From Acidobacteriota bacterium (GTDB lineage Bacteria > Acidobacteriota > Aminicenantia > S016-38), in NCBI GenBank assembly GCA_015486055.1, contig WFSJ01000049.1:1-38562 (forward strand): a stretch of 38,562 nt of DNA, in the 5' to 3' direction. The notes beneath the pieces are model-generated. The model did no database searches. It was not told the DNA's origin and saw nothing but the letters and a program-made list of their open reading frames with translations. Numbering within the stretch: position 1 is the stretch's first letter; every line of letters begins with the position of its first letter. The position numbers and the translations under genes are program-made. This document shows positions 10,769-36,478 of this stretch, piece by piece.

Positions 10769-11622
10769 ATCTTCCTGATTATATACTTGAGGCGATAAAG
10801 AGAATAGAAATTATCTCAAGGAAGAAGGTCAGTGAAATATTTGGAGGAGAGTATAGAAGTGTTTTTAAAGGGAGAGGCATAGAGGTAGAGGAAGTAAGGG
10901 AATATGAACCCGGGGACGACACAAGAACGATAGATTGGAAAACGTCTGCAAGGAGAGGAAGCCTTTATGTTAAAAAATTTAGGGAGGAGAGAGAGCTTTC
11001 CCTTTATCTTGTGATTGACTCTTCCCTTTCTCTTGATTTCGGAATTCCAATGAGGAAGAGGGAGAAAGCCGCCGAGGCTGCAGCCCTTCTTTCTCTTGCT
11101 GCCCTTGTGAACAATGATAAGGTTGGGCTTTTGACCTTCGGTGAAAAGAAGGGGAAATTTGTGCCCCCAGGAAAAGGAAGAGGACATTTTCTCAGGATTA
11201 TAAGAGAAGTTCTTGTTGAAAGAGACTACGGAAAAGAAACGAGGATCGGGGAAGCCCTTAGCTGGGTTTATAGGGTTGCAAAGAAGCGCGGGGTTGTAAT
11301 TGTAATATCAGATTTTTACACAGAAAGCAGCTTTCTTAAGGAGTTAAAGCTTGTTAGTAGGAAACATGATTTTATAGGTATATGGGTGAGAGAAAGGGCA
11401 GAGGCCAGGCTTGATCGTATTTCTCCTTTTTATGGGGAGGATCTTGAGTCGGGTGTCTATTCCCATTTATGGCCAAGGCCTTCGGTTTTGAAGGAGCTCT
11501 TTATGAAATATGAGTCCGGAATAAGGACTATATTCAAAAGAGCAGGAGCTGGCCTTATAGAAATTTTCACAGACCAACCCGCGTATATACCCATAGAGAA
11601 ATATTTCAGGAGAAAAGCATGA
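10765..11622 (+). CDS. DUF58 protein with VWA-like fold (MoxR partner)
   Basis: This 285-residue soluble protein carries the DUF58 signature GRGIEVEEVREYEPGDD...RTIDWKTSARRG at about residues 36-64. A VWA-like domain follows, with LVIDSSLSLDFG (Asp85) in the metal-site position and VIVISDFYTE further on. DUF58 proteins accompany MoxR ATPases throughout bacteria and are thought to be clients or adaptors in envelope stress or assembly. Both ends share ATGA overlaps with neighbours. No signal peptide or membrane helix is seen. Confidence 0.92.
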   Translation: MNLPDYILEAIKRIEIISRKKVSEIFGGEYRSVFKGRGIEVEEVREYEPGDDTRTIDWKTSARRGSLYVKKFREERELSLYLVIDSSLSLDFGIPMRKREKAAEAAALLSLAALVNNDKVGLLTFGEKKGKFVPPGKGRGHFLRIIREVLVERDYGKETRIGEALSWVYRVAKKRGVVIVISDFYTESSFLKELKLVSRKHDFIGIWVRERAEARLDRISPFYGEDLESGVYSHLWPRPSVLKELFMKYESGIRTIFKRAGAGLIEIFTDQPAYIPIEKYFRRKA

Positions 11623-12338
11623 GGAAATTGTTTATCTTATTGCCAGTTTTCCTCATGGCTGCTACGGTAGAGCCTACAAGGATAGCAGTTGGAGATCCTA
11701 TTATAGTGAGGACATCAGAGAATATTTCCTTTTCAAAACCATTTAGCCTACTCAGTCTGAGCAAAAGCGAAGGGATTTATCAGTATGCCATTACCCTATA
11801 TGAACCAGGTAAATATGAATTGAACTTAGAGAATAAGAAATATTCAATAGAGGTTATATCTCTTTTAAAAGGTGGAGATGAACTAAAGGAAATAGTTCCT
11901 CCTCTTTCGATAAAGGGAAATCCTTTCTGGATAGCAAAAAGGCTCCTTGGGTTCCTTTCCCTTTTGTTGATTGCATTCTTAGTTTACAAGATAATAAAAA
12001 GCAACAGAAGAACTGTTGTAATTTCTCCTGAAGAAGAGCTTGAGAAATACCTCATAGAATCAAGGAATGCTTTCTCAGAAGGGGATATGGACAGCTTTTA
12101 TTCAATTTTGAGCTTTTCCCTGCGAAATTATATACAAAGGAAATTTTCCATACCAGCCCTTTCCCTTACATCCTCTGAATTAAAAGAGAAAGGAGAGGAG
12201 AAAATCGCCTCTGTGTTAAAAAGGGCTGATCTTGTTAGATTTGCAGGCGAAGCCATAAACATGGAGAATTCCAGAAAAGATCTGAGCTGGGCATTTAATT
12301 ATTTAGAGGAGAGAAAAATTGAAATTTCAAAGGCCTGA
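11619..12338 (+). CDS. single-pass membrane protein of the Bat cluster (DUF4381/BatD-like)
   Basis: This 239-residue protein has a signal peptide (about 1-15), a small beta-rich extracytoplasmic domain (about 20-85), one membrane helix (about 108-125, LLGFLSLLLIAFLVYKIIK) and a cytoplasmic helical domain. The tail motif SPEEELEKYLIESRNAF...FYSILSFSLRNYIQRKF resembles the cytoplasmic end of DUF4381 and BatD proteins. It occupies the slot between DUF58 and batA where DUF4381 genes often sit. The precise role is unknown; it probably tethers or scaffolds the complex. It overlaps batA by 20 bp. Confidence 0.65.
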   Translation: MRKLFILLPVFLMAATVEPTRIAVGDPIIVRTSENISFSKPFSLLSLSKSEGIYQYAITLYEPGKYELNLENKKYSIEVISLLKGGDELKEIVPPLSIKGNPFWIAKRLLGFLSLLLIAFLVYKIIKSNRRTVVISPEEELEKYLIESRNAFSEGDMDSFYSILSFSLRNYIQRKFSIPALSLTSSELKEKGEEKIASVLKRADLVRFAGEAINMENSRKDLSWAFNYLEERKIEISKA

Positions 12339-13290
12339 GTTTTTAATTCTTTTTATTGTTCTTGCTATTTTTTATCTTTATGTAAGGAGAAAAAAGAAAA
12401 TCTCAATAGGATTGGGCGCTGTAAAGTTCTATGAGCTCTCAACCCCGAAATTCAGGAAATATTTACTTGCGGCCCCTGAAGTTCTTCTCTATTTAATCCT
12501 TGTATTTTCAATTATTTCCTCATCCGGGTTTTCACTCTCTTCAAGATACAGGGAAGTTTATCTACCCGGAATAGATGTAATGATTATTTTTGACATTTCC
12601 AGATCCATGGCAGCAGAGGATTTTGCTCCAAGAAATAGGTTTGAGATAGCAAGGACAGTTGTTGAGGAATTTATTAAAAAAAGGGAGGTTGACAGAATAG
12701 GGCTTGCAGCCTTTGCAGGTGCTCCTCTTTTAATATGTCCCCTTACTCTTGATAAAAATTTCCTTATAAGTTCCCTTAATGCACTTAAGATAGGAGAAAT
12801 AGAGGATGGAACAGCCATAGGCTTGGCAATAGCAGAGGGGGTATCAGACCTTCAATCGAGCAAAACATCAAAGGTTATGATACTTTTGACCGATGGCATG
12901 AACAACAGAGGGGAGATCTCTCCAATTGATGCTGCAAAAATGGCAGAAGAGGCTGGGATTAAGATTTATACAATAGGGGTTGGAAAAAAGGGGAAAGCGA
13001 AAATTCCAATAGAAGCAGGAATTGGAATGACATATATAGAAAAGGAGGTGAGCATAGATGAAAAAACCCTGGAGAGGGTAGCTGAAATAACAGGAGGAAG
13101 ATATTTCAGAGCTGAAAACCCTCAGGCTCTAAAGACTATATTTAAGGAGATAGATTCCTTGGAAAAAGGAGAGATAAGGGTGAAAACAGAGGCGAGATTC
13201 CGGCCAATTTACAATGAGCTTGATCTTTTAATAGCTATATTATTCCTTTTATGGCTATTTCTGAGAGCAATTCCGGTGGAGATTCCCTGA
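12319..13290 (+). CDS. batA: BatA-like VWA-domain membrane protein
   Basis: This 323-residue protein has N-terminal membrane helices (about 8-20 and 50-70), a VWA domain and a C-terminal helix (about 300-318). The MIDAS motif DISRS is at residues 92-96, and ILLTDGMNNRG carries a further metal-site Asp. The VWA domain is predicted on the far side of the inner membrane. BatA works with BatB, BatD and MoxR in aerotolerance or envelope integrity in Bacteroides and Leptospira relatives; the mechanism is unsettled. The start is TTG at 12319, preceded by AGAGGAGAG. It shares one base with batB. Confidence 0.9.
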   Translation: MKFQRPEFLILFIVLAIFYLYVRRKKKISIGLGAVKFYELSTPKFRKYLLAAPEVLLYLILVFSIISSSGFSLSSRYREVYLPGIDVMIIFDISRSMAAEDFAPRNRFEIARTVVEEFIKKREVDRIGLAAFAGAPLLICPLTLDKNFLISSLNALKIGEIEDGTAIGLAIAEGVSDLQSSKTSKVMILLTDGMNNRGEISPIDAAKMAEEAGIKIYTIGVGKKGKAKIPIEAGIGMTYIEKEVSIDEKTLERVAEITGGRYFRAENPQALKTIFKEIDSLEKGEIRVKTEARFRPIYNELDLLIAILFLLWLFLRAIPVEIP

Positions 13291-14240
13291 TGGGCTTTGA
13301 GAGACTGAATTTATGGTGGTTTTTTCTCCTATTGCTGGGGGTTTATTTCATTCATCTTTTCCTGTGGCTCAAAAAAAGGAAGAAAATTTTTAGTGCTAAG
13401 AATCTTAAGATCCTTGAGAGGAAAGGAGCTATTTTGTTAGGGGAAATTTCAGTCCTTTTAGGGATAATCTTTCTTTCCATCGCTCTTTTTTCGCCAACTT
13501 GGGGGGAGGGGAAGAAGAAAATAGAAGCTTCAGGGAGTGACATGGTATTCATTCTTGATCTTTCAAACAGCATGCTGTGTGAGGATTCTCCCCCATCAAG
13601 GTTAAAGGCTGCCAAATCGCTCATAAGTCAACTTGTGATAAGAGGTAAAGGCGATAGATTTGCAATTATAGGTTTTGCAGGGGAAGCGAGGATATTTTCC
13701 CCTCTTACTTCTTCAAAGGATGGTTTTCTCAAGATTCTGGATTTTTTAGGGCCAGAAGTTGTAAAACAGGGAACAAATATAGGCGTAGGTTTAAAGAAAG
13801 GCTTAGGACTCCTTTCGGGATCTGTCAAAAGGGGTAAGGTAATTATCATTTTAACCGATGGAGAATTTAACACAGGGAGATGGGGCGAGGAGGCTGTGGC
13901 TCTTGGTAAAGAGGGAATAAGAACATTTATTGTCGGCATTGGAACTAAAGAAGGCGGGGGAATAAAGATGTCGGATGGAACTTTTAAGAGAGATAATCTT
14001 GGAAGAGAAGTCTTAACTGCCTTGAGGCCGGAGACGCTTGAGAAACTTTCCTCTGACCTTAAAGCAGATCTCCTTATCCTTGAATCTTTATCCCCGATTG
14101 AAGTGGTAAAGAGGATAGAGAGCAGAGCAGAGAAAGTTTCAAGGTTTCATTACATAACATATTCGGTCCCAAGGTATTACATTTTTACATTTCTTTTTTT
14201 TCTATCAATTCTGGGTTTTATATACTGGAGGAGAAGATGA
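13290..14240 (+). CDS. batB: BatB-like VWA-domain membrane protein
   Basis: The protein has 316 residues when started at ATG 13290 (MGFERLNLWW), which follows GGTGGAG and forms TGATG with the batA stop. The longer frame upstream adds 13 polar residues ahead of the first membrane helix and is less likely. Membrane helices lie near the N-terminus (two) and the C-terminus (one). The VWA MIDAS motif DLSNS is at residues 90-94, with ILTDGEFNTG downstream. It is the partner paralogue of BatA and overlaps the TPR gene by 4 bp. Confidence 0.9.
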   Translation: MGFERLNLWWFFLLLLGVYFIHLFLWLKKRKKIFSAKNLKILERKGAILLGEISVLLGIIFLSIALFSPTWGEGKKKIEASGSDMVFILDLSNSMLCEDSPPSRLKAAKSLISQLVIRGKGDRFAIIGFAGEARIFSPLTSSKDGFLKILDFLGPEVVKQGTNIGVGLKKGLGLLSGSVKRGKVIIILTDGEFNTGRWGEEAVALGKEGIRTFIVGIGTKEGGGIKMSDGTFKRDNLGREVLTALRPETLEKLSSDLKADLLILESLSPIEVVKRIESRAEKVSRFHYITYSVPRYYIFTFLFFLSILGFIYWRRR

Positions 14241-14764
14241 AGAAGCTCATATTCTTAGTTCCTTTTCTTCTTTTCTTTCACTGGTTTGATCCCAGTTCGA
14301 TGCTTGTTGAAAGAGGAAACTCGCTTTTTAAGGCTGACAATTATAGGGGAGCTCTTAATTACTATCTTAAAGCTTTGAAGAGGAGAGATAGGCCTGAGAT
14401 TCACTTCAACATAGGCTGTGCTCTTTATATGATGGGTAACTATAACGAATCTGAAAAGGAATTTGAGAAGTATCTCAGGTTTAACCAGGACTATAGAGCT
14501 GTTTTCAATATAGGCAATATTTATTTCAGGGAGGGGAACTACAGAGATGCGATAGAAAAGTATAAAAATGCCCTTAGACTTAACCCTTATTTTTACCCAG
14601 CAAAGGTAAATATAGAAATAGCCCTTTCCAAATTGAGGGTGGAGAAAAGCCCTTCCTCTAAAGCAATTCCAGATGTTATAATGGAATTCCTTAAGAAAAA
14701 GGAGAAGGAGGTTTTTAAGAAGAAGTGGAGAGCTCAGGGAAAATCAGGGCAAAAGGACTGGTAA
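14237..14764 (+). CDS. exported TPR protein of the Bat cluster (BatC-like)
   Basis: This 175-residue protein has a signal peptide (about 1-17) and about three tetratricopeptide repeats (residues 25-135). The repeats are visible as ALNYYLKALKRRDRPEIHFN, ALYMMGNYNESEKEFEKYLR and YFREGNYRDAIEKYKNALRL. A basic, lysine-rich tail follows. TPR proteins (BatC/BatE) are standard members of Bat operons and probably scaffold the VWA proteins on the periplasmic side. Its 3' end overlaps batD by 40 bp if the GTG start of that gene is right. Confidence 0.82.
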   Translation: MKKLIFLVPFLLFFHWFDPSSMLVERGNSLFKADNYRGALNYYLKALKRRDRPEIHFNIGCALYMMGNYNESEKEFEKYLRFNQDYRAVFNIGNIYFREGNYRDAIEKYKNALRLNPYFYPAKVNIEIALSKLRVEKSPSSKAIPDVIMEFLKKKEKEVFKKKWRAQGKSGQKDW

Positions 14765-23453: not shown

Positions 23454-23801
23454 ATGGAGTTATTGTTTTCTTTCGTCTTTGTTCTATTGATTTCCTTTTC
23501 TATGTTTTTTTCTGGTAAAGTGTTTGGTCCAAGGAAAGATAATGCCTCAAAAAAAGAGCCCTTTGAATGCGGTGTTGAACCACTCCAAAAGGAGGTCCCC
23601 AAGAATTATTCCGTCCATTATTTTAAGATAGCAATTTTATTTTTGATCTTTGATATAGAACTTGCCTTTCTTATTCCATGGGCTCTGGCATTCAGGAAAA
23701 ATCCCTTCCTGTTTTTTGTTGTGATGGTGATTTTTCAGGCATTTGTCCTCCTTGCCCTTTTTTATGCATGGAAAAAGGGCGATCTTAAGTGGGGAATATG
23801 A
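23454..23801 (+). CDS. nuoA: NADH-quinone oxidoreductase subunit A
   Basis: This 115-residue membrane subunit has three helices (about 3-20, 55-75 and 82-105). The conserved loop EPFECGVEPL carries Cys39, and FDIELAFLIPWA is in the second helix with conserved acidic residues. It sits at the membrane base of the complex I quinone site. Size matches the family (about 115-150). A GGGAG site precedes the ATG. It overlaps nuoB by 4 bp and opens a nine-gene run. Confidence 0.95.
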   Translation: MELLFSFVFVLLISFSMFFSGKVFGPRKDNASKKEPFECGVEPLQKEVPKNYSVHYFKIAILFLIFDIELAFLIPWALAFRKNPFLFFVVMVIFQAFVLLALFYAWKKGDLKWGI

Positions 23802-24268
23802 AAGAAGGCAATTTTCTTACAACGACTGTTGAATCTCTTCTTGGATGGGCAAGGAAATATTCCTTATTTCAATATCCATTTGTTACTGCATGTTGCGGCA
23901 TGGAATACATGGCAGCAGCAGCATCCCATTTTGATATTGACAGGTTCGGTGCAGGGCTTACCCGTTTCACCCCGAGACAGGCAGATGTTCTTTTTGTGGT
24001 TGGCACAATTTCTCACAAGCTTGCTCCTGTCCTTAGAAAAGTTTATGACCAGATGACAGAACCCAAATGGGTCGTTGCCTTTGGAACCTGCACCATAACA
24101 GGTGGGATTTATGATAATTATGCGGCTGTTCAGGGTATAGATGCGATAATACCTGTTGATATATACATACCCGGATGTCCGCCGAGACCTGAGACTATTC
24201 TTGACGGTCTTATGAAGCTTCAGAAGAAAATACAGAGGGAAAAGCAGAAATGGTCCTTGATGAAATAA
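23798..24268 (+). CDS. nuoB: NADH-quinone oxidoreductase subunit B
   Basis: The protein has 156 residues from ATG 23798, chosen for its ATGA overlap with nuoA; a GTG three codons upstream is also possible. The four ligands of cluster N2 are Cys32, Cys33, Cys98 and Cys127, with the same spacing as in Escherichia coli NuoB. N2 is the last iron-sulfur cluster before quinone. The protein lacks the long N-terminal extension of some homologues. It overlaps nuoC by 19 bp. Confidence 0.96.
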   Translation: MKEGNFLTTTVESLLGWARKYSLFQYPFVTACCGMEYMAAAASHFDIDRFGAGLTRFTPRQADVLFVVGTISHKLAPVLRKVYDQMTEPKWVVAFGTCTITGGIYDNYAAVQGIDAIIPVDIYIPGCPPRPETILDGLMKLQKKIQREKQKWSLMK

Positions 24269-24714
24269 GGGAGAAGTATGACCTGAAGAAACTGGCTACA
24301 GCAGACGGGATCCCAACTTATTACTGTCCTGCAGATTTTGTAGCAAAACTTTCAAAGGAGCTGAAAGAAGATTTCAAAGTTCTCCTTGATATAACCGCTG
24401 TTGATTATATGGGAAGGAAGGAAAAGAGATTTGAGATAGTATATCTTTTCCTTTCCATCACTCAAAAAATAAGGTTGAGGATAAAGCTTGAAATAGAGGA
24501 AGGACAAAAAGTTCCAACAATTTCGCATCTTTGGGGAAATGCAAACTGGCTTGAAAGGGAAATATACGACATGTTTGGTATAGAATTTAAAGGGCATCCT
24601 GACCTTAGAAGAATTCTTCTTTACCCCGAATTTAAAGGACATCCTTTGAGGAAGGATTATCCAATTAAGAAATCCCAACCGAGGATAAAATTTCTCAGAC
24701 CCGAGAGGAAATGA
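24250..24714 (+). CDS. nuoC: NADH-quinone oxidoreductase subunit C
   Basis: This 154-residue peripheral subunit shows the 30-kDa family signature LEREIYDMFGIEFKGHPDLR, followed by ILLYPEFKGHPLRKDYPI. It is separate from NuoD, unlike the fused NuoCD of enterobacteria. AGAGGGA lies upstream of the ATG. It overlaps nuoB by 19 bp and nuoD by 4 bp. Confidence 0.95.
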   Translation: MVLDEIREKYDLKKLATADGIPTYYCPADFVAKLSKELKEDFKVLLDITAVDYMGRKEKRFEIVYLFLSITQKIRLRIKLEIEEGQKVPTISHLWGNANWLEREIYDMFGIEFKGHPDLRRILLYPEFKGHPLRKDYPIKKSQPRIKFLRPERK

Positions 24715-26012
24715 TGGAGAGAATGCTTCTTAATATAGGTCCCTCTCATCCTGCTATGCATGGCACAATTCAGATCAAAGTAGAGTTAGATGGAGAAAGA
24801 GTAATTAAGGCGGATGTTGAGATAGGATATCTCCACAGGGGATTCGAAAAGACTGCGGAGAACAGAACATACATACAGATTGTTCCATATACAGACAGAC
24901 TGAATTATGTTTCACCTCTTCTGAATAACTTGGCTTATGCAATGGCGATAGAAAAGCTTCTTGGAATAGATGTTCCCCCAAGAGCAAAATGGCTGAGGAT
25001 GATATTCGCAGAGATATCAAGGATAACGGACCACCTTACATGCATTGCTCCTATTGGGATGGAACTTGGAGCCTTCACCGTTTTTCTCTATATGATAAAG
25101 GCCAGAGAATTCCTGTGGGATGTTCTCGATGCAACTACAGGAGCGAGGCTCACCACTTCCTATATAAGAATAGGCGGGGTAAAGGCAGATGTCCCTGAAA
25201 ATTTTGGGGAGCTTTTGAAAAAAGCTATTGAAGAAGTAAAGAAGGCTGTAAAAGATGTTGGCGGACTTCTTTCAAAGAATCCAATTTTTCTCAAAAGGAC
25301 AAGGGATATTGCAATCGTATCCCAGAGTGATGCCCTCAATTATGGGTTCACAGGTCCTGTTCTCAGATCCACAGGATATTATTATGATGTTAGAAAGGCA
25401 TTTCCCTATCTTTATTATGACGATGTTGATTTTGATGTTCCCCTCGGGGAAAATGGGGACAATTACGATAGATACATGGTAAGGATGAGGGAAATAGAAC
25501 AGAGTATAAGGATAATAGAACAGGCATTCAAGAAAATAGAAAAGGGACCTGTAAGGGAAAAAGAAGGGCTAATAGAAGCATATGAGGCGATAAAAGCTTC
25601 TCAGAGAGGGGAATATCTGGAGGGAAAGCTTAAACTCGGACCTAATCTTGAAGGGATGGAGAAAGAGACATACGAAAGCATAATGGCAAATGTTCCTGAG
25701 TATGTTCCTCCACCCAAGGAGGATCTTTACAGAACAATAGAAGGAATGATAAGGCACTTCAAGCTCATAATGAGCGGCCATGGAATAAGACCTCCCAAAG
25801 GGGAAGTTTACATTCCTATTGAGGGGGGAAACGGAGAACTTGGATTTTACATCGTGAGTGATGGAACTGATAAGCCTTACAGGGTGCACCTCAGGGCCCC
25901 TGTTTTTTCAATAATGTCAGCCCTTGGAAAGATGATAGAGGGTTACTATGTTGCAGATGTTATACCTACTTTTGCCTCAATTAATATGATTGGCGGGGAG
26001 CTTGACAGATGA
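24711..26012 (+). CDS. nuoD: NADH-quinone oxidoreductase subunit D
   Basis: This 433-residue 49-kDa-type subunit lines the quinone cavity with NuoB. Signatures include IGPSHPAMHGT near the N-terminus, GYLHRGFEKTAENRTY, ITDHLTCIAPIGMELGAFT and FPYLYYDDVDFDVPLGENGD. The C-terminal block is RVHLRAPVFSIMSALGKMIE, ending in GELDR as usual. It is somewhat longer than many bacterial homologues (about 370-410), the extra lying in a charged insert near residues 255-340. It overlaps both neighbours by 4 bp. Confidence 0.95.
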   Translation: MMERMLLNIGPSHPAMHGTIQIKVELDGERVIKADVEIGYLHRGFEKTAENRTYIQIVPYTDRLNYVSPLLNNLAYAMAIEKLLGIDVPPRAKWLRMIFAEISRITDHLTCIAPIGMELGAFTVFLYMIKAREFLWDVLDATTGARLTTSYIRIGGVKADVPENFGELLKKAIEEVKKAVKDVGGLLSKNPIFLKRTRDIAIVSQSDALNYGFTGPVLRSTGYYYDVRKAFPYLYYDDVDFDVPLGENGDNYDRYMVRMREIEQSIRIIEQAFKKIEKGPVREKEGLIEAYEAIKASQRGEYLEGKLKLGPNLEGMEKETYESIMANVPEYVPPPKEDLYRTIEGMIRHFKLIMSGHGIRPPKGEVYIPIEGGNGELGFYIVSDGTDKPYRVHLRAPVFSIMSALGKMIEGYYVADVIPTFASINMIGGELDR

Positions 26013-26479
26013 AGGAAATAAGTAAGGAAGCAAGGGAAAAAATAAAGAATCTCTTTTCCCGCTATCCGGATAAACGTTCATCTCTCCTTGAAGTTTTGCA
26101 CATACTTCAGGATGATTGGGGATATATAGAGGAAGAGGATGAAGAGAAAATTGCAGAGCTTCTTGATATGAATCCTGTTAATGTTCACGAGGTTGTAACT
26201 TTCTACACAATGTATTACAGAAGACCCGTTGGGAGATATGTGATAAAAGTTTGCAGGAATTTAACATGCACACTTATGGGTGGGGAAACGATAATAAATT
26301 ATCTAAGGAAAAAGCTGAAGGTAGAATTAGGGAATACCAGCTCTGATGGAAAATTTACTCTTGAGGCTGTTGAATGCCTTGGAGCCTGCGAATTAGCACC
26401 TGTTATGGAAATAAACGGAGAGTTTTACGGTCATCTTACTCCTGAAAAAATAGATAAAGTCATAGAGGAACTTAAGTGA
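26009..26479 (+). CDS. nuoE: NADH-quinone oxidoreductase subunit E
   Basis: This 156-residue thioredoxin-fold subunit binds the [2Fe-2S] cluster N1a through Cys82, Cys87, Cys123 and Cys127 (VCRNLTC and ECLGACELAP). The helical N-terminal domain has the usual VHEVVTFYTMY segment. With NuoF and NuoG it forms the NADH dehydrogenase module. Its stop overlaps the nuoF GTG start. Confidence 0.96.
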   Translation: MKEISKEAREKIKNLFSRYPDKRSSLLEVLHILQDDWGYIEEEDEEKIAELLDMNPVNVHEVVTFYTMYYRRPVGRYVIKVCRNLTCTLMGGETIINYLRKKLKVELGNTSSDGKFTLEAVECLGACELAPVMEINGEFYGHLTPEKIDKVIEELK

Positions 26480-27732
26480 GTCTTGTCATAACTCCATGGT
26501 TCGGGGCGGTAAAAATAGGTGATTACATAAAAAGGAGAGGTTATGAAGGCGCCAAAAAAGCCCTTTCAATAAAGCCAGAAGATGTTATAGAGGAAGTGAA
26601 AAAATCCAATCTAAGGGGAAGAGGCGGTGCTGGTTTTCCCACAGGCCTAAAATGGAGCTTTGTCCCAAGGGAAACTGATAAACCAAAATATCTCTGTGTA
26701 AATGCTGACGAAGGAGAGCCAGGGACATTTAAAGATAGATATATAATTGAAAATGCTCCCCATCTTATTATAGAAGGAGCAGTAATAGCTTCATGGGCAG
26801 TTGGAATTCACAGGGCATATGTTTACATAAGGGGAGAATATTTAAAATTTGCTCTTATTCTTGAGAAGGCGATTGAAGAAGCCTATCAGAGAGGATTTCT
26901 TGGGAAAAACATTTTTGGAAAGGATTTTAGCTTGGATATATACATTCACAGGGGAGCTGGAGCATATGTATGCGGGGAGGAAACTGCTTTGATTGAATCT
27001 CTTGAAGGAAAGAGAGGAAATCCAAGGGTAAGGCCTCCTTTTCCTGCAACAAATGGGCTTTACGATTGCCCTACAGTTGTAAACAATGTCGAGACAATAG
27101 CCTGCCTTCCGTATATATTAAGGGAGGGAGGTGAGAACTTTGCCTCCCTCGGCGTGGAGAAAAACGGTGGAACGAAGCTTTTTGCGGTAAGTGGTCATGT
27201 TAAGGATCCAGGAGTTTACGAATTACCAATGGGGAGCAGCCTGCGGGAGCTAATTTATAACTATGCAGGTGGTGTCAGGGGAAACAGAAGGCTTAAGGCT
27301 GTGATCCCAGGAGGAAGTTCCTCATCCATACTGATGGCAGATGAAATAGATGTGAGTCTTGATTATGATTCAATGATAAAAGCAGGGACAATGCTTGGCT
27401 CTGGAGCCGTTATTGTTCTTGATGAAACAGCATGCATGGCAGAAGTTTTAAGGGTTATAACAAGGTTTTACGCTCACGAGAGCTGTGGCCAGTGCACTCC
27501 CTGTAGGCAGGGAACTTCATGGATGGCAAAAATTGCAGAGAGGATAGCAATAGGAAAGGGGAAGAAGGGAGATATTGACCTTCTCCTTGATATTGCCCAT
27601 TCAATTATGGGTAAGACAATTTGTCCCCTTGGGGATGCAGCAGCAATGCCAGTTATAGCAATTTGCGATAAATTTCGGTCAGAGCTTGAAGAACAGATAA
27701 GGGAAAGAAGATGTCCAATAGAAAGAGAATAA
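26476..27732 (+). CDS. nuoF: NADH-quinone oxidoreductase subunit F
   Basis: This 418-residue subunit binds NADH, FMN and cluster N3. Visible are the glycine-rich NADH site GRGGAGFPTGLKW, the FMN region NADEGEPGTFKDRY, VCGEETALIESLEGKRGNPR, and the cluster ligands Cys337, Cys340, Cys343 and Cys383 (SCGQCTPC and ICPLGD). It starts with GTG at 26476, forming GTGA with the nuoE stop. Full length. It overlaps nuoG by 22 bp. Confidence 0.96.
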   Translation: MSLVITPWFGAVKIGDYIKRRGYEGAKKALSIKPEDVIEEVKKSNLRGRGGAGFPTGLKWSFVPRETDKPKYLCVNADEGEPGTFKDRYIIENAPHLIIEGAVIASWAVGIHRAYVYIRGEYLKFALILEKAIEEAYQRGFLGKNIFGKDFSLDIYIHRGAGAYVCGEETALIESLEGKRGNPRVRPPFPATNGLYDCPTVVNNVETIACLPYILREGGENFASLGVEKNGGTKLFAVSGHVKDPGVYELPMGSSLRELIYNYAGGVRGNRRLKAVIPGGSSSSILMADEIDVSLDYDSMIKAGTMLGSGAVIVLDETACMAEVLRVITRFYAHESCGQCTPCRQGTSWMAKIAERIAIGKGKKGDIDLLLDIAHSIMGKTICPLGDAAAMPVIAICDKFRSELEEQIRERRCPIERE

Positions 27733-29162
27733 AGATTACGATAGATGGGAAAGAAATTGAAACTTATGAGGGGACCCTTATAATAAAAGCTGCTGAGGAT
27801 GCAGGAATATACATACCAAGGCTTTGCTATCATGAAGCATTGAAACCTGATGGAAACTGCAGAATGTGTTTTGTTGAAATTGAAGGTTTGAGGAAACCTG
27901 TCCCTTCGTGTTTAACGCCGGCAAAGGAAGGGATGGTTATAAGGACCGACACAGATGCTCTCAAGAAGCACAGAAGCTCTATACTTGAAATGATACTCAC
28001 TACCCATCCGATGGACTGTCCAATCTGTGATCAGGCAGGGGAGTGTGCACTTCAGGATTATTATTTTCAATACGATCTTAAGGAAAGCCGCTGGAGGGAG
28101 AAGAAAGAGAAAAAGCCAAAGAGAGTTCACTGGGGGAAGAATTTAATATACGATGCTGCCCGGTGCATAATTTGTAAAAGATGCGTAAGGTTTCTTGATG
28201 AGATTACTGGAACTCAGGAGCTTGGCGTGTTTGAGAGAGGCATCCATAGCTATATAGGGCTTTTTGATGGAAATAGAATAGAGAATGATTACTCAGGGAA
28301 CCTTGTTGATATTTGTCCTGTTGGTGCAATTACAGACCTTGATTTTAGATTTAAGTCAAGGGTCTGGTTCCTTAATAGAACGCCTTCAATCTGTCCGTTC
28401 TGCGCGAGGGGATGCAATATAGAAATTCACACTAATACGAAGAACCCGTTTTCCTCCCAGAGAGTTTACAGAATAAAACCGAGGAAGAATCTTGAAGTGA
28501 ACAAATGGTGGATATGCGATGAGGGCAGGTATTCATATGAGTTTATTGACAGTGATAGAATAGAATATCCAATGGCCAGGGGAAAGAAAACAAGCTGGGA
28601 TTCTGTAAGACAGGAGATACTCAAGATTGTAGGGAAAGATGTAAGGTTGTATGTTTCGGCATGGATGAGCAATGAGGAACTTACATACTGGATGCAGATA
28701 GCAAAAACCTTTGATTGGAAACTTTCCCTTGTTGGGAAACCCCGTGGAAAGGGAGATGAAATCCTTAAGCTTCCTGATAAGAACCCTAATAGAAAGGGAG
28801 CTGAAATTCTGGGAATCAGAGAAGAAATTGGGCATGAAGAAGTGGCAGTAGTTTTTCACTTTCTGCCTGTGAGCTTGGAAAGGCATAAAATAAAGATAGG
28901 AATTTTTACAAATAAATTTGAGGGTATGGACAAATTTGACATTATTATTCCTGCAGCGGTTTTTGCTGAGAAAGAAGGGAGCTGGACAAATTTCCAGGGC
29001 AAGGTTCAAAATTTCCAGAAGGCTTTAGAACCCATAGGAGAAGCAAAAAGTGAGGGAGAAATAGGAGAATTTTTAGCCAATACCTTAGGACTTGACCTAC
29101 AATGGGAAATTGGAAAGTACAGGGAAGAATTTGAGAAGGAGCTCAGGAAATGGAATGGGTAA
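27711..29162 (+). CDS. nuoG: NADH-quinone oxidoreductase subunit G, short form
   Basis: This 483-residue subunit has every cluster ligand: [2Fe-2S] N1b at Cys39, Cys50, Cys53, Cys67; N5 at His99, Cys103, Cys106, Cys112; N4 at Cys152, Cys155, Cys158, Cys202; and the optional N7 at Cys228, Cys231, Cys235, Cys269. The molybdopterin-oxidoreductase-like region that follows is only about 210 residues, against 400-650 in most homologues. Its end still has the family block IIIPAAVFAEKEGSWTNFQG. This suggests a large internal loss rather than a broken 3' end. It overlaps nuoH by 13 bp. Confidence 0.94.
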   Translation: MSNRKRIKITIDGKEIETYEGTLIIKAAEDAGIYIPRLCYHEALKPDGNCRMCFVEIEGLRKPVPSCLTPAKEGMVIRTDTDALKKHRSSILEMILTTHPMDCPICDQAGECALQDYYFQYDLKESRWREKKEKKPKRVHWGKNLIYDAARCIICKRCVRFLDEITGTQELGVFERGIHSYIGLFDGNRIENDYSGNLVDICPVGAITDLDFRFKSRVWFLNRTPSICPFCARGCNIEIHTNTKNPFSSQRVYRIKPRKNLEVNKWWICDEGRYSYEFIDSDRIEYPMARGKKTSWDSVRQEILKIVGKDVRLYVSAWMSNEELTYWMQIAKTFDWKLSLVGKPRGKGDEILKLPDKNPNRKGAEILGIREEIGHEEVAVVFHFLPVSLERHKIKIGIFTNKFEGMDKFDIIIPAAVFAEKEGSWTNFQGKVQNFQKALEPIGEAKSEGEIGEFLANTLGLDLQWEIGKYREEFEKELRKWNG

Positions 29163-30232
29163 TTGCAGTTGCGGTTAAGGTGATAGTCATCTTCACTTGG
29201 GCTCTTCTTACAGTTCTGTACATAACCCTTCTTGAGAGAAAGGAATCGGCAGTCATTCAGGATAGGATAGGTGCAAACAGGGCATCTATTCTGGGACTCA
29301 GGCTGAATGGCTTTTTCCAACCTTATGCAGATGCTCTGAAGATGTTTTTCAAGGAAGATTATACTCCTCCCTTTGTAGACAAGCCTTTTTATTATTTAGC
29401 CCCGCTTGTTTCAATCGTATTTGCCCTTATTCCAGTTGGAGCAGTTCCTGTTGCAGATTCAATAGGCCTTTTTGGAAGGAAATTTCCCTTATCTGTGATA
29501 GGCTCAAATGTGGGGGTTGTTCTTATACTTTCCCTTCTTTCTCTTGCTGTATACGGCGTTATCTTCGGAGGTTATGGTTCAAGGAACAAATATGGTGTTC
29601 TCGGAGGGATGAGAGGAACTGCACAGGCTATTTCCTATGAGGTTGCAATTGGCCTCTCCTTGGTGGGCGTTCTCATGGTGTTTCCTTCCCTTGACCTTAA
29701 CGAAATAGTTCATCTTCAGAACAGATACATTCTCGGTGGATGGGTACCTCTGTGGGGAATATTCCTTCAGCCTCTTGCAGCGGTTTTATTCCTTATAGCA
29801 GGTATGGCTGAAAATAAAAGGGTCCCCTTTGACATTCCTGAAGGCGAGTCAGAAATCATAGGATATTTCCTTGAATACAGCGGAATGAAATTCGGGATGT
29901 TCTTTGTGGCAGATTTTGTAGAGATTCTCCTTCTTGCTGCCCTATTCACAACATTTTTCCTCGGGGGCTACAATCTTCCCTGGCTTTTTACGGAGGGTTT
30001 TCACTTCCCATGGGGAGGAAGTCTTGCCATGTCTCCTATAATTGTTCGGATAGTCCAGTTTGTAACCTTTAATATAAAACTCTGGATTATGATCTGGTTT
30101 CTCCTTCTTGTAAGATGGACATATCCAAGATACCGCTTTGACCAGTTAATGGACCTCGGCTGGAAATCTTTAGTTCCCCTTTCGATATTCAACATTCTAA
30201 TAACAGCGGCAGTGATGGTGGTGATAAGATGA
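29150..30232 (+). CDS. nuoH: NADH-quinone oxidoreductase subunit H
   Basis: This 360-residue membrane subunit has eight to nine helices. Typical blocks are LLERKESAVIQDRIGANRAS, GFFQPYADALKMFFKEDYTP and RVPFDIPEGESEIIGYFLEY. It joins the quinone site to the proton-pumping membrane arm. Full length. It overlaps nuoI by 4 bp. Confidence 0.96.
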   Translation: MEWVIAVAVKVIVIFTWALLTVLYITLLERKESAVIQDRIGANRASILGLRLNGFFQPYADALKMFFKEDYTPPFVDKPFYYLAPLVSIVFALIPVGAVPVADSIGLFGRKFPLSVIGSNVGVVLILSLLSLAVYGVIFGGYGSRNKYGVLGGMRGTAQAISYEVAIGLSLVGVLMVFPSLDLNEIVHLQNRYILGGWVPLWGIFLQPLAAVLFLIAGMAENKRVPFDIPEGESEIIGYFLEYSGMKFGMFFVADFVEILLLAALFTTFFLGGYNLPWLFTEGFHFPWGGSLAMSPIIVRIVQFVTFNIKLWIMIWFLLLVRWTYPRYRFDQLMDLGWKSLVPLSIFNILITAAVMVVIR

Positions 30233-30693
30233 GGCTTTTTATAGAAGCAGTTAAGGGGCTTGGGGTAACAATGAAGCATTTCTTTCTCAATATGTTCTAT
30301 CACATCTTGAGATTTTTTCACCTGAGCCATAAAAAAGGGGAAACAGTTACGACTCAATACCCCGAGGAGAAGAGGGAAACATTTACAAGGGTTAGGCTGC
30401 GCCACAGGCTTCTTTCCAGGGATGACGGAAGACTTCGCTGTGTCGCGTGTTATATGTGTGCGACTGCCTGTCCTGCGCAATGTATATACATTGAGGCAGA
30501 AGAGGATCCCAGGAATCCTCTTGAAAAGAAGCCAAAGCAGTTTATAATAAACCTTGGAAGATGTGCCTACTGCGGGTTCTGCGTTGAGGCTTGCCCTGAA
30601 GATGCCCTTAGAATGGATGTGCATGTCCCCGAAATTTCTGAATATAAGAAGGAAGACTTGCTTTATGATATAGACAAGTTGACCCATTGGTGA
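30229..30693 (+). CDS. nuoI: NADH-quinone oxidoreductase subunit I
   Basis: This 154-residue ferredoxin-like subunit holds clusters N6a and N6b through Cys71, Cys74, Cys77, Cys81 and Cys112, Cys115, Cys118, Cys122. Each second motif has the CP end (CATACP and CVEACP). An amphipathic N-terminal helix would lie on the membrane. It is the last nuo gene in the run. nuoJ, K, L, M and N are not found downstream. Confidence 0.96.
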   Translation: MRLFIEAVKGLGVTMKHFFLNMFYHILRFFHLSHKKGETVTTQYPEEKRETFTRVRLRHRLLSRDDGRLRCVACYMCATACPAQCIYIEAEEDPRNPLEKKPKQFIINLGRCAYCGFCVEACPEDALRMDVHVPEISEYKKEDLLYDIDKLTHW

Positions 30694-30700
30694 ATTGGGG

Positions 30701-31402
30701 ATGAAAGGCAGGATTCTTATAGTAGATGATGATCAGAATCTTATAGACTCTCTTAGAAGAGAATTGAAAGAGGAGATGGAGCTCTACCACATAGATTTTG
30801 CAAAGAATGGGAGAGAAGCTCTCGAGAAGATAAATAAGGATGGTGCGGATCTTCTTATTACCGACATAAGAATGCCTGAGATGGATGGGATTTCCCTATT
30901 AGTGGAACTTATGAATAGTAAGAAATGGATGCATGTTATAGTGGCTTCAGGAGAAAATACAATGAGGATGATGAACCTCAAAAGCATGGAGGAACTCAAG
31001 GATTTTGGAATAGTGAAATACATATACAAACCTTTCCTACCCAGCAGCTTCAAAAAATTATTAAGGGAAACAATGGAGAAGATAGAACAGAGCGATACAA
31101 TAAGAGGGATAACACTCCCTTCTATCCTCCAGATGGTTGAGATGGATGGAGTTACAGGCGTAATAACGGTTCAGAAAGGGAAAATGGAGGGCAGGCTTTT
31201 TTTTCGGTGGGGCGGATTGGTTGATGCCCAGACTGAAAACCTCAATGGAGAAAAAGCGGCTCTTGACATCCTTTCGTGGAAGGATGTAAAAGTCTCCATT
31301 GAGCACATCCATCACAACAGGAAGAAAACGATAAAATTGGGTCTTGTTTCTCTGATTCTCAAAGCATCCAAAGAGATTGATGAGAAGAGAAAAATTTCCT
31401 AA
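30701..31402 (+). CDS. response regulator with C-terminal PATAN/DUF4388 domain
   Basis: The protein has 233 residues from ATG 30701, with GGTGA as ribosome site; a TTG two codons upstream is less likely. The receiver domain (about 1-118) has the acidic pocket Asp9-Asp10-Asp11, phosphoacceptor Asp55 in LLITDIRMPEMDG and Lys110 in YIYKPF. The C-terminal PATAN (DUF4388) domain runs from GITLPSILQMVEMDGVTGVI to the end. PATAN domains are thought to mediate protein contacts in signalling, not DNA binding. No partner kinase is encoded in the window. It lies 7 bp after nuoI and 2 bp before the flippase gene, so it is probably co-transcribed with both. Confidence 0.88.
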   Translation: MKGRILIVDDDQNLIDSLRRELKEEMELYHIDFAKNGREALEKINKDGADLLITDIRMPEMDGISLLVELMNSKKWMHVIVASGENTMRMMNLKSMEELKDFGIVKYIYKPFLPSSFKKLLRETMEKIEQSDTIRGITLPSILQMVEMDGVTGVITVQKGKMEGRLFFRWGGLVDAQTENLNGEKAALDILSWKDVKVSIEHIHHNRKKTIKLGLVSLILKASKEIDEKRKIS

Positions 31403-31404
31403 AT

Positions 31405-32652
31405 ATGGCTGAGAAGCATGATAAGAGGAGGATAGCTGAAAATTTCTTTTCCCTTTCCCTTATAGAAGGAGCAAGATATCTACTTCCTTTTCTTACTGTT
31501 CCATTCTTATTAAGGGTTCTTGGCGCTGAAAAATATGGATTGGTATTATTCGCTCAGGGTATAATTCAGTATTTTGGGGTACTTGTTGAATATGGCTTTG
31601 GGATATCTGCAACCCATGAAATATCTGTCAATAGGGAAAGCCCTGAAAGAATAAGCGGGATTTATTTTTCGGTCATCATCGCAAAAATATTATTGATGAT
31701 TTTTGGCTTTGTTATCCTTGTTTTTTTGATATTTTCTATAAAAAAACTTAGAGCTGAGTGGCTACTTTATATCCTTACCTTTAGCACGATTTTTGGCAAT
31801 GTTTTTACCTCTATATGGTTCTTCCAGGGGCTTGAAAAAATGAAATATATAACAATTATAAGTATAGTAAATAGAGTTCTATTTGCCCTTTCAATTTTTG
31901 CATTTATAAGGAAGCCTTCTCATTATATTTATGTTCCTGTAGTAAATTCCATTGCAAGCTTTGTCGCCGGAATTCTTGCCCTTTATCTGGCCTTTAAAAT
32001 TTTCCCCCTAAAGTTTAGGTTTCATTTTCCCACACTCATATATATGTTCAAAAAAAGCTTTTTCTTCTTTCTTTCAAGGCTTTCCATCAGCTTTTATACG
32101 GTTACCAATAGTGTTTTGATAGGCTCTATTTTTTCCATGGAATATGTGGCGTATTATGGAGTTGCAGAAAAGACGGTTAGGTTTTTCCGCAGGCCTGTAG
32201 ATTTATTAAATAGAGCAGTTTATCCTTATGCTTCCTATAAAAGATCCTCCGAGTTTATAAAGAAAATCCTCAAATATACATTTATATCTGGAGTTATTTT
32301 TATGCTTTTTATTGATGCGTTTGGGAAACCGATTATTATGTTGATTGGTGGAGCACAATTTGTCCCCGCAGTAAAACTTCTCAGGATACTTTCACTTATA
32401 GTTCCTATAGTTAGCATTCATGTCCTTCTGGGAACTTCTGTTCTCGTCGCCTTTGGAAAGGAAAAATATTTCAATTTAAGCGTTATCTTTGGCTCTTTGT
32501 TCTATGTAGTAACTATTGTGAGTTTTATAGCTTTAAATGTATTGACGGTTCCCATGATTGCTTTTGTGAGAGTTTTAGCTGACGGTTTCATTCTTGTTTA
32601 TAGATTTTATTGTGTGAGAAAATTTAATCTTCTTGGAGGAACTTATGCCTAA
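31405..32652 (+). CDS. Wzx-type polysaccharide flippase (MOP superfamily)
   Basis: This 415-residue protein has about twelve membrane helices. The N-terminal segments PFLTVPFLLRVLGAEKYGLV and YFGVLVEYGFGISATHEIS are typical of O-antigen/teichoic lipid-linked oligosaccharide flippases. It would move a polyprenyl-linked repeat across the inner membrane. No Shine-Dalgarno is clear; translation may be coupled to the upstream gene, which ends 2 bp earlier. It overlaps the next gene by 8 bp. Confidence 0.9.
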   Translation: MAEKHDKRRIAENFFSLSLIEGARYLLPFLTVPFLLRVLGAEKYGLVLFAQGIIQYFGVLVEYGFGISATHEISVNRESPERISGIYFSVIIAKILLMIFGFVILVFLIFSIKKLRAEWLLYILTFSTIFGNVFTSIWFFQGLEKMKYITIISIVNRVLFALSIFAFIRKPSHYIYVPVVNSIASFVAGILALYLAFKIFPLKFRFHFPTLIYMFKKSFFFFLSRLSISFYTVTNSVLIGSIFSMEYVAYYGVAEKTVRFFRRPVDLLNRAVYPYASYKRSSEFIKKILKYTFISGVIFMLFIDAFGKPIIMLIGGAQFVPAVKLLRILSLIVPIVSIHVLLGTSVLVAFGKEKYFNLSVIFGSLFYVVTIVSFIALNVLTVPMIAFVRVLADGFILVYRFYCVRKFNLLGGTYA

Positions 32653-33994
32653 GGTATATGCAATAATTCTTGCCGGCGGAACAGGAGAAAGGCTCGGATT
32701 TCCGACTCCAAAGCAATTTATTAAAGTTGCAGGAAAGACAATAATTGAGCACACTATTGAGGCATTTGAGAAACATCTGAAGGTAGACAGCATAATTATT
32801 GTCGTAAACCCCTCTTATAGAAGTTTGATGGAGGAAATACTCTTGAAAAATAACTATAAGAAGGTAAAAAAAATTCTCAATGGGGGAGAGACGAGAAAGG
32901 AAAGCTCATATATCGGGGTGAACTCCATTTCAGACGAGGATGCCGTTGTTCTAATTCATGATGCAGTAAGGCCTTTTGTCACCGAAAGAATAATTAATGA
33001 GTCCATAGAAGCTGCGGCAAAATACGGGGCAGTGGATGTTGCGATCCCATCTGTTGATACAATAATAAAGGTTGATGATTCAATGTTTATAGAGGAAATT
33101 CCCAGAAGGAAATATATGATGAAGGGGCAAACCCCTCAGAGCTTCAGGGTAAATTTAATAAAGAAAGCGCACCAAATTTCCATGGATGATAAAGAAGTAA
33201 CTGATGATTGTGGGCTTGTGCTCAAGCATGGACTCTCAAAGATATATGTTGTAAGAGGTGAGGAAAGGAATATAAAGCTTACCTATCCCGAGGATACATT
33301 CCTTATTGATAGACTTTTTCAGCTCAGGACCCATGCGATCCCCGGGGTTTCACTTAAGGAGCTAAAGGGGAAGGTTATAGTGATTTTTGGGGCAAGCCGG
33401 GGAATAGGGAAATCAGTATTGAATCTGTCAGAAAACAAAGGCGCAAGAGCTTACGGCTTTTCAAGAGGAAATAATGTTGATGTAAGGGATATTGATGTTA
33501 TAGAAAAAAGCCTGGAAGGAGTTCAGGAAAGAGAAGGAAGAATTGACTTCGTTGTAAACACAGCAGGAATCCTTGGGATTGGAAAATTGGAGGACAGGGC
33601 TATAGAAGACATTTACAGGGAAATAAGCATAAATTACATAGGGCCAATAAATGTAGTAAAGGCCGCTATTCCTTATCTTAAAGAAACAAAAGGCAGTATT
33701 GCGCTTTTTACCTCAAGTTCCTATACAAGAGGAAGAGCACTTTATACAGTTTATTCCTCCACAAAAGCTGCAATAGTTAATCTTATACAGGGCCTTGCAG
33801 AGGAACTTAATGAAAGCGGCATAAGAATAAATGCAATAAATCCCCAGAGGACAGCCACCCCAATGAGGTTTAAGGCCTTCGGTAAAGAACCTCCAGAAAC
33901 CCTTTTGAGGCCCGAGAAGGTGGCTGATGCAACTCTGAAAACCCTTCTTTCGGGACTTACAGGCCAGGTTATAGATGTAAGGAAAAATGGCTAA
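32645..33994 (+). CDS. bifunctional cytidylyltransferase-SDR reductase, Bcs1/Acs1-like CDP-ribitol synthase
   Basis: The protein has 449 residues from ATG 32645, set by GGAGGA 4 nt upstream (a TTG at 32633 is less likely). The N-terminal half (1-230) is an IspD/TarI-type cytidylyltransferase with [20 protein letters not shown] and a [12 protein letters not shown] block. The C-terminal half (about 240-449) is a short-chain reductase with nucleotide motif GASRGIG (249-255) and active-site Tyr370-Ser-Ser-Thr-Lys374. This two-domain order is that of Haemophilus Bcs1/Acs1, which reduce ribulose 5-phosphate and activate the product as CDP-ribitol. The following CDP-alditol transferases support this role. 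A pure MEP-pathway IspD would not carry the reductase. Confidence 0.85.
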
Positions 33995-35234
33995 GATAAG
34001 GAGACCTAATCGGATACTTCTCATATTAAAAATCTTGATAAGGGTTATGCTCGTTTACTTTCCAGGCTGGATTTTTTTATATCCTCTTTCACTTTTAATT
34101 CCGAAGAAAAAAAATCTTGTTTTGTTTATTGGAAGAGATAATGGAAGATTTATTGATAATGTGAAATATTTATTTATTCATGCGATAAAAAATAATGAAA
34201 GGGCTCAAATTTTCTTCATAACAGAGGAACCCAGAACCTATGATCTTCTTGCGAGGAATAAAATTCCAGTGATTTTTCATCCTACAATCAAATCTTTCTT
34301 TTATATGTTAAGGGCAAATCTCCTGGTTGTAGATAACAGATTGTGGATGAGGAAATTTAAATTTTATCTTCTTTATCGGACGAAAAAAGTGCAGTTATGG
34401 CATGGAGTTGGCTTTAAAAAGATAGAAACAGCAAATCCCAACTTTAATAGGAACCTATTTTATAGGATTATAAATATGTTGAGAGGAAGACTTCCGAGAT
34501 ATTCTCTTCTCGTATCAACTTCTGAATTTTATACGGAAAATGTTTTTAGAAATACTGTAAAGGCAGAGAGAATAGAAGAGTTTGGGTATCCAAGAAATGA
34601 CATATTATTCAGGAATCCTGATGGATTGGATTATATAGAAGCGGATACGGAAGTTATCACAAGGGTGAAGAAGTTAAAGAAGGAGGGTTTTAAAGTAATT
34701 ATATATACTCCGACCTTTAGGGATTTTACAGAGAGTGAGCCTATCAAAGATGGATTTATAAATATAGAAAAGCTTGATGATTTTTCAGCAAAGAACCGAA
34801 TAGTTTTTGTAATGAAGTTTCACCCTGAATTTAAGGTTCTTGTTAATCATGAAGAACTCCCACACATTTTATTCTATAAAACAGCAAAAGATATATATCC
34901 ATTCTTGCCTCTTACAGATTTACTCATAACTGATTATTCGTCCATTTATATGGATTATCTTTTGCTTGATAAACCAGTAGTCTTTTTTCCCTATGACTTT
35001 GATGAATATATAACAGTGGATAGAGAAATTCAGTTTGATTACGAATGGATAACCCCAGGACCCAAATGTTACACTCAAGAGGAGCTCCAGGATGTCATAA
35101 AAAAGACTTTGTTCGGGGGCCAGGATAAATGGGGAAATAGGAGAAAAGAAATATTGAACATTGCCTTTAAGTATAAAGACGGAAAAGCCTCGGAAAGGAT
35201 ATGGAATTATATAAAGGAGAAACTACTGGGTTGA
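33987..35234 (+). CDS. CDP-alditol phosphotransferase, TagB/TagF/TarL-like (first copy)
   Basis: This 415-residue protein has a short membrane-associating N-terminus and a GT-B-like teichoic-acid transferase fold. Motifs are QLWHGVGFK (His139) and [20 protein letters not shown] (Asp316), matching the catalytic and substrate-binding blocks of TagF-like enzymes. It would transfer ribitol-phosphate (or glycerol-phosphate) from the CDP-alditol made by the upstream gene to a lipid-linked acceptor. It overlaps the upstream gene by 8 bp. It is a clear tandem paralogue of the next gene. Confidence 0.88.
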
Positions 35235-36478
35235 AAAAAATTGTTCCAGAGTTGTTTAACCTTTTTTTCCAGTATATTCCTTCATGGTTATTTATCGTGC
35301 CCCTTTCCCTCCTTATTCCCTCTAAAAAAGGCTTTGTTCTTTTTATAGGAAGATTACACAAAGAATGGGGGGAAGAATTTTCTGGAAATGTAAAGTATCT
35401 TTTTATCCATGCCTTAAAAAGCGGCTATAAGAAGATTGTCTTTCTCACTTCTAATAGAGATACATGGGAAACACTGAAAAAGGAAAAAATCCCTGTTTTA
35501 TTTTACCCTTCTCTGTCATCCATCTGGGCCCTGATAAGGACAGAGCTTATCATTGTAGATGGTTCAGAGTGGATCGGGGAATACAGACAGTTTTTTCTAT
35601 TCCCTTCAAGAAAAATTCAGCTCTGGCACGGAGTGGGATTTAAATTCATAGAATTGTGTGAATATAGGGGAAAAAGTTCTCTTATGTTTTTTCTTCGGAG
35701 AGTTTTTAAGGCTGTAAAACAAAGTTCTCCCAGATATGACCTTGTAGTTTCAACATCTGCTTTTTATACCGAAAATGTTTTTTCCAAATGCTTTAGATGG
35801 AGGTACATAAAGGAACCGGGATATTCCCGATGCGATATATTCTTCCGCAAGCCCGATGATTTAGACCTTATAGGTAGCGATCGGGAAATTATTAACAATT
35901 CAAGGAGTTGGAAAAATAGAGGATGGAAAATCATAATTTATGCTCCAACCTTTAGAGAAGGAAAGATGAACTCATCCTTCAAGGATATCTTTGATCTCAG
36001 GAAGCTGGACGATTTTTGTGAGGCTCATAAAATAAAATTTGTTTTAAAGGGACACCCTGAACAAAAACTCGGTTCCGTGGATTCGTGCAGAAACCTATGG
36101 GTATATGAAGAAAGCAAAGATGTCTACCCACTTCTTCCCCTTACAGACCTTCTTATAACAGATTACTCCTCCATATATATGGATTATCTTCTTCTTGAAA
36201 AGCCTGTAGTCTTTTTCCCTTATGACTATGACTCTTACATAAAAAACGACAGGGAACTCCAGTTTGATTATGACTGGATAACTCCCGGGCCAAAATATCA
36301 CATGCAGGAAGAGCTTGAAGTCGGGATAATTGAAATGCTTATCGAAGGAAAGGATGAATACTCTGAAAGGAGGAAGGAAATTTTAAATCTTGCTTTTAAG
36401 TACAAAGATGGCAACTCATCCCAAAGGATATGGAATTACATTAAAGAAAAATACCTCTCCGAACCCCAAGGAAAATAA
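35201..36478 (+). CDS. CDP-alditol phosphotransferase, TagB/TagF/TarL-like (second copy)
   Basis: This 425-residue protein matches its neighbour along its whole length: the same N-terminal PLSLLIP block, QLWHGVGFK (His143), [32 protein letters not shown] (Asp321) and the C-terminal FKYKDG...RIWNYIKEK. The ATG at 35201 overlaps the first copy by 34 bp; a TTG at 35231, overlapping as TTGA, would remove ten residues and is a fair alternative. In teichoic-acid pathways paired transferases act as primase and polymerase, which may apply here. It is the last gene of the plus-strand series. Confidence 0.88.

Follow-up and report, generated by a model that had tools for sequence, protein, structure and literature searches.

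We have analyzed a stretch of 38,562 nucleotides from an Acidobacteriota bacterium (contig WFSJ01000049.1, positions 1 to 38,562; hereafter the window), whose genome (G000) has 1.86 Mb and is 98.9% complete. Open reading frames and Pfam matches delimit in it a cassette of four plus-strand genes, each overlapping the next (Table 1). The original prediction had described a flippase, a fused cytidylyltransferase-reductase and two TagF-like transferases as one overlapping unit; coordinates and Pfam agree with it, and the unit recurs in another species of the genus (G299, locus L079), where the gene order is kept with one TagF-like gene. The gaps between nuoI and the response regulator, and between the regulator and the flippase, are of 2 bases or less, so that the cassette is probably part of the nuo/response regulator transcription unit. 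The complex I operon ends here at nuoI, with the regulator-DUF4388 gene next, and nuoJ-N were not found downstream of nuoI either in the window or in the loci of the relatives that we read.

Table 1. Genes of the cassette and of the conserved region preceding it, in window coordinates.
Feature	Position	Strand	Basis
nuoA-I (complex I) operon, conserved flank anchoring the ispD slot	23454..30693	+	Pfam complex I subunits
Response regulator-DUF4388 protein, immediately upstream of the cassette	30695..31402	+	PF00072 + PF14332, synteny
MOP-superfamily polysaccharide flippase (Wzx/RfbX-like)	31405..32652	+	PF01943, E=6e-46
IspD-SDR fusion, predicted bifunctional CDP-ribitol synthase	32645..33994	+	PF01128 + PF00106
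TagF-like polyol-phosphate transferase 1	33987..35234	+	PF04464, E=5.2e-62
TagF-like polyol-phosphate transferase 2	35201..36478	+	PF04464, E=9.5e-52

The outer membrane genes expected in the window are present, namely an efflux gene (OEP, 811-2118) and an AcrB-type RND pump (3188-6295). Also as expected, there was no ABC capsule exporter among the cassette and flanking window genes scanned, and the same genes included no Kdo-linker genes. Inside the cassette (31405-36478) we found no glycosyltransferase, polymerase or ligase, and none of the primer genes TagO, TagA and TagB. The flippase and the first TagF-like gene are AT-rich (GC of 0.34 and 0.33, with neighbours at 0.40-0.44), and the fusion, at 0.405, is similar to the neighbours; base composition does not settle the origin of the cassette either way. 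In another part of the window (9782-14764) there is a MoxR-DUF58-VWA-VWA-TPR set with a layout like that of the Bacteroides aerotolerance genes.

The fusion matches PF01128 (IspD, 2.2e-52) and PF00106 (adh_short, 2.8e-31). Its likely start is the ATG at 32645, with a GGAGG upstream at 32635-32639, which displaced the TTG at 32633 and gives a product of 449 aa. Numbered from the TTG, the IspD/TarI-like domain covers approximately residues 5-230 and the SDR residues 244-453, with a variable linker of 13 residues in between. This N-terminal IspD-type cytidylyltransferase followed by a C-terminal SDR, both with their catalytic sets intact, is the architecture of Bcs1/Acs1. Comparison of 32 fusions bore out the claim of intact motifs in both halves: the residues of the CTP/alditol site were invariant, as were GxxxGIG, S361/S362, Y374 and K378 of the SDR, and the SDR half was as highly conserved as the IspD half. 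The fusion passed the cut-offs of TIGR00453 (ispD, equivalog-domain; 196.7 bits, cut-off 181.3) and of the NCBIfam model for D-ribitol-5-phosphate cytidylyltransferase, NF001183 (192.7 bits, cut-off 166), and failed that of the IspD equivalog NF001186 (185.4 bits, cut-off 253). The standalone IspDs of the sister genus likewise fail NF001186, and NF001183 was absent from their matches at E<=1e-38. The closest solved relatives of the fusion are TarI enzymes, and it carries the TarI-type signature, HDAVRPF plus Gly165 before QTPQ. This glycine appeared in all 38 fusions, in 4/4 TarI and in 4 of 60 standalone homologues; the substrate-site signature of the MEP enzymes, a residue other than Gly before QTPQ, is therefore absent from the fusion. 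Arg or Lys at position 164 was considered as a mark of MEP use and dropped, since it is also found in dedicated fusions, e.g., that of Proteus. The AlphaFold2 model (pLDDT 91.7) had human ISPD (4cvh) as its best fold match in the PDB, over both domains, and S. aureus TarI, including the complex with CDP-ribitol, came next. The scores of the family models, the signature residues, the tree and the fold all point in the direction of the CDP-ribitol originally proposed, and its synthesis is a well supported best prediction for the fusion. CDP-ribitol would be a natural product given the two PF04464 enzymes that adjoin the fusion, and PF04464 genes are found beside fusions in other lineages too. 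The nearest named relatives of the genome are Candidatus Aminicenantes MAGs (L079, with 75% identity in the fusion, L092 and L095), and the nearest named cultured diderm among the loci returned was Proteus (L105), with a fusion 44% identical.

The flippase is well above the cut-off of PF01943 (Polysacc_synt; 157.5 bits, cut-off 28.2) and has an orthologue, 65% identical, at the same place in G299. TacF, also a MOP flippase, handles pneumococcal teichoic acid (PMC13385700). The two TagF-like genes are the only PF04464 genes of the genome. The translation of the first has the WHG and HPE histidine motifs, and its best solved relative is TarL (8va1, E=1.4e-20); the second is 51% identical to the first and has no separate orthologue in G299. 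Both fall short of the equivalog cut-offs of TarF (107 and 82 bits, cut-off 550) and TarL (80 and 77 bits, cut-off 1000), and also of that of TarB. With scores so far under the TarF and TarL cut-offs, they may act as a polymerase or as decorating transferases.

We compared the position of the cassette with the same region in related genomes. Four sister-genus genomes (G034, G232, G004 and G297) have a standalone ispD directly after nuoI and the response regulator, and in G000 and G299 that slot holds the flippase, the fusion and the TagF-like genes after nuoI and the regulator. The nuo orthologues are in the same order in the four sister-genus genomes and partly so in G299. The cassette occupies the ancestral ispD position in this genus, and its recurrence in G299 indicates that the cassette is not due to chance. 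As these genomes are assemblies of many contigs, the junction between the cassette and the complex I operon could be an artefact of assembly or binning. However, the same junction is found in G299, on a different contig and with 65-83% protein identity, so that such an artefact is extremely improbable and can be taken as largely refuted.

The genome has Dxr, IspG and IspF, all above equivalog cut-offs, with dxr and ispG located in a uppS-cdsA-dxr-rseP-ispG cluster. A search of the genome contigs found no second IspD, the fusion being the sole homologue; one weak match, in contig C55, was judged by its sequence to be the N-terminal part of GlmU. We extended the search to 71 genomes at least 90% complete, 69 of them with IspF, from the same class, which the nearest named relatives identify as Aminicenantia. 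Five carry the fusion (G000, G299, G240, G360 and G361) and none of these has a standalone IspD, which was detected in 61 of the 64 IspF-positive non-carriers and missed in the other 3, although the genomes are fragmented assemblies where absence of IspD is not proof. Counted by genome, the difference (5/5 vs. 3/64) gave a Fisher p=5e-6, and p=0.005 when the carriers were taken as two lineages against the 64. Apparent second IspDs in G240 and G361 turned out to be contig-end copies (99.5% and 91%) of the starts of their own fusions. In the rest of the class the standalone IspDs are matched at E<=1e-41. Of 21 fusion carriers outside the class that have IspF, 14 possess a standalone IspD as well and seven look fusion-only, though the completeness of their genomes is unestablished. 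A close relative (G304) of one apparently fusion-only genome (G305) has a standalone IspD. Fusions also occur in six genomes in which IspF was not detected.

In the phylogenetic tree, the fusion of the window joined fusions of other phyla (six entries, support 99/91 and 95/94). An origin in place from the ispD of its own family is disfavoured by this tree, even if a clade of the two was not rejected (AU p=0.147), and horizontal replacement of ispD is favoured, though not proven. The fusions of a second Aminicenantia lineage (f6) group with a standalone IspD of G365 with support 99/99. This IspD (L176, a 234-aa ORF in contig C68) is the sole full-length one of that IspF-positive genome and shares 66% identity with the IspD half of the fusion in G240. 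The best tree nests standalone IspDs among the fusions, and a single fusion clade was not rejected (AU p=0.23); change between the fusion and standalone forms may have gone in either direction. The same tree places eight standalone IspDs of Gastranaerophilales type amid the fusions; these have Cys or Ile replacing the fusion Gly before QTPQ, which suggests switching between both forms. One Gastranaerophilales genome (G309, locus L084) encodes five PF01128 proteins of full length, including one fusion. A clade of IspD-SDR fusions was found at 17 loci of environmental Chlamydiae (Parachlamydiales, Rhabdochlamydia and Simkaniaceae MAGs), mostly beside a separate IspD, and CDP-ribitol in chlamydiae would be unexpected. 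Two archaeal MAG contigs (L100 and L102, Methanomassiliicoccales and Euryarchaeota) carry fusions 45-46% identical to that of the window. The MEP pathway is generally missing from archaea, and these two fusions, if not contamination, would favour a role in CDP-ribitol synthesis.

From the domains, their intact motifs and the synteny we infer the following pathway. The SDR half would reduce ribulose 5-phosphate with NADPH to ribitol 5-phosphate, a route that was proposed after Bcs1 of Haemophilus influenzae type b (PMC10299916), and the IspD/TarI half would convert this and CTP into CDP-ribitol. The TagF-like pair would transfer ribitol phosphate to a lipid-linked acceptor, and the flippase would move the product across the inner membrane. 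A surface role based on a CDP-alditol, ribitol most likely, is in our opinion very probable. The cytidylyltransferase half might additionally convert MEP into CDP-methylerythritol for isoprenoids, a role that is suggested by the retention of Dxr, IspG and IspF in a genome with no IspD homologue besides the fusion. Here the balance is near even: the MEP role is favoured by the slot, by the lack of a standalone IspD in two lineages and by the grouping of f6 with G365, and the TarI-type site, the MEP-inactive mouse ISPD and the separate IspD of most carriers outside the class speak against it. We would put the MEP role by itself at an even chance, and its coexistence with the surface role only marginally below. 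Our most far-reaching proposal, for which the chances appear slightly short of even, is that ispD was replaced by a CDP-ribitol-type fusion of dual substrate range, with a single site serving both the isoprenoid/undecaprenyl carrier and the ribitol polymer, and that f6 is in the same state. We found no report of a dual MEP/ribitol IspD in the literature searched. Activity in the MEP pathway, which the original prediction had set against its own reading, has then to be taken seriously, most probably in addition to CDP-ribitol synthesis.

The fusion could instead make CDP-ribitol only, and the MEP step would then fall to an IspD that the assemblies lack or that has diverged beyond recognition. 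The TarI-type signature would fit such a specialization, as would the separate IspD kept by most fusion carriers of other phyla. Mouse ISPD, a CDP-ribitol enzyme, has no MEP activity (PMC4873967), and both the three IspF-positive non-carriers without detected IspD and the pair G305/G304 illustrate that absences may mislead. However, neither species of the genus has a standalone IspD in genomes that are 99% and 97% complete, the ispD slot is assembled and filled by the cassette, and a diverged copy should have been apparent considering how strongly the standalone IspDs of the class are matched. We regard this explanation as rather unlikely, but worth keeping in mind. The opposite alternative, a plain MEP-pathway IspD with an unrelated SDR in a cassette unconnected with ribitol, would account for a sole IspD standing in the ispD slot and passing the TIGR00453 cut-off. 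It fits badly with the gene overlaps with the transferases and flippase, with a Gly signature common to TarI and with an SDR half that is equally conserved and has intact catalytic residues. Besides, 14 IspF-positive genomes have the fusion together with a separate IspD and six fusion genomes have no detected IspF. All this makes a plain IspD very improbable.

The nature of the alditol has to be considered as well. The product could be another CDP-alditol (e.g., CDP-glucitol, -mannitol or -arabinitol), or a ketose phosphate could be cytidylylated before reduction. In Campylobacter a PF01128 cytidylyltransferase and a reductase make CDP-6-D-glucitol with cytidylylation coming first (PMC10918830), and the low TarF/TarL scores of the TagF-like pair would leave room for a different polyol. 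Still, the Campylobacter reductase belongs to PF01370 and not to PF00106, the fold and signature specifically fit TarI and ISPD, and the characterized Haemophilus IspD-SDR fusions are CDP-ribitol synthases, as cited in (PMC4873967) and (PMC10918830). We consider a different product improbable, and CDP-ribitol the preferred one.

What is unexpected in this cassette is its position in the ispD slot and the exclusivity of the fusion as IspD homologue. Where isoprenoids are made solely through the MEP pathway IspD is essential, and it is a target for antibacterials and herbicides; the CDP-ribitol enzymes are regarded as a separate, MEP-inactive branch. This lineage makes the boundary between both specificities testable, with one conserved candidate position, the Gly before QTPQ. 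If a single enzyme covers the two reactions, the synthesis of a surface polymer and of its carrier lipid would share one step.

Among known systems, TarI (S. aureus, B. subtilis and S. pneumoniae) shares with the fusion HD(A/S)VRPF and GQTPQ, the fold and the position as closest solved relative. TarI is a single-domain enzyme, and its reductase partner TarJ is a separate protein. Human ISPD (CRPPA) is alike as a CDP-ribitol maker matching the model over both domains, whereas mouse ISPD takes ribitol 5-phosphate supplied by other enzymes (PMC4873967). Bcs1/Acs1 of H. influenzae types b and a, likened by description, have the same type of cytidylyltransferase-reductase fusion with polyol-phosphate transferase genes in the locus (PMC10299916; PMC4873967). 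Theirs, however, is a capsule locus of group 2 with an ABC transporter, whereas the fusion of the window lies with a flippase in the ispD slot of the complex I operon, in a genome with no further IspD homologue.

Ribitol phosphate on diderm surfaces is known from the H. influenzae type b capsule (PMC10299916), a ribitol-phosphate O-antigen was predicted in H. parainfluenzae (PMC3989065), and Proteus O53 is "ribitol teichoic acid-like" in work cited there. The suggestion that a diderm ribitol polymer might be a little-described variant is accordingly weak, with Haemophilus and Proteus already published (PMC3989065, PMC10299916), and the cassette is an ordinary new member in this respect. It resembles these O-antigens in that a surface glycan of a diderm is predicted to bear ribitol phosphate, and the Proteus locus combines fusion, PF01943 flippase, GT2 and EpsG-type genes. 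Those clusters are complete, unlike the present cassette without glycosyltransferases and polymerase, and Proteus keeps a separate ispD. With the MEP IspD, finally, the fusion shares the chromosomal slot, the domain family and the TIGR00453 match, but it differs from it in the TarI-type substrate-site signature and in the C-terminal SDR.
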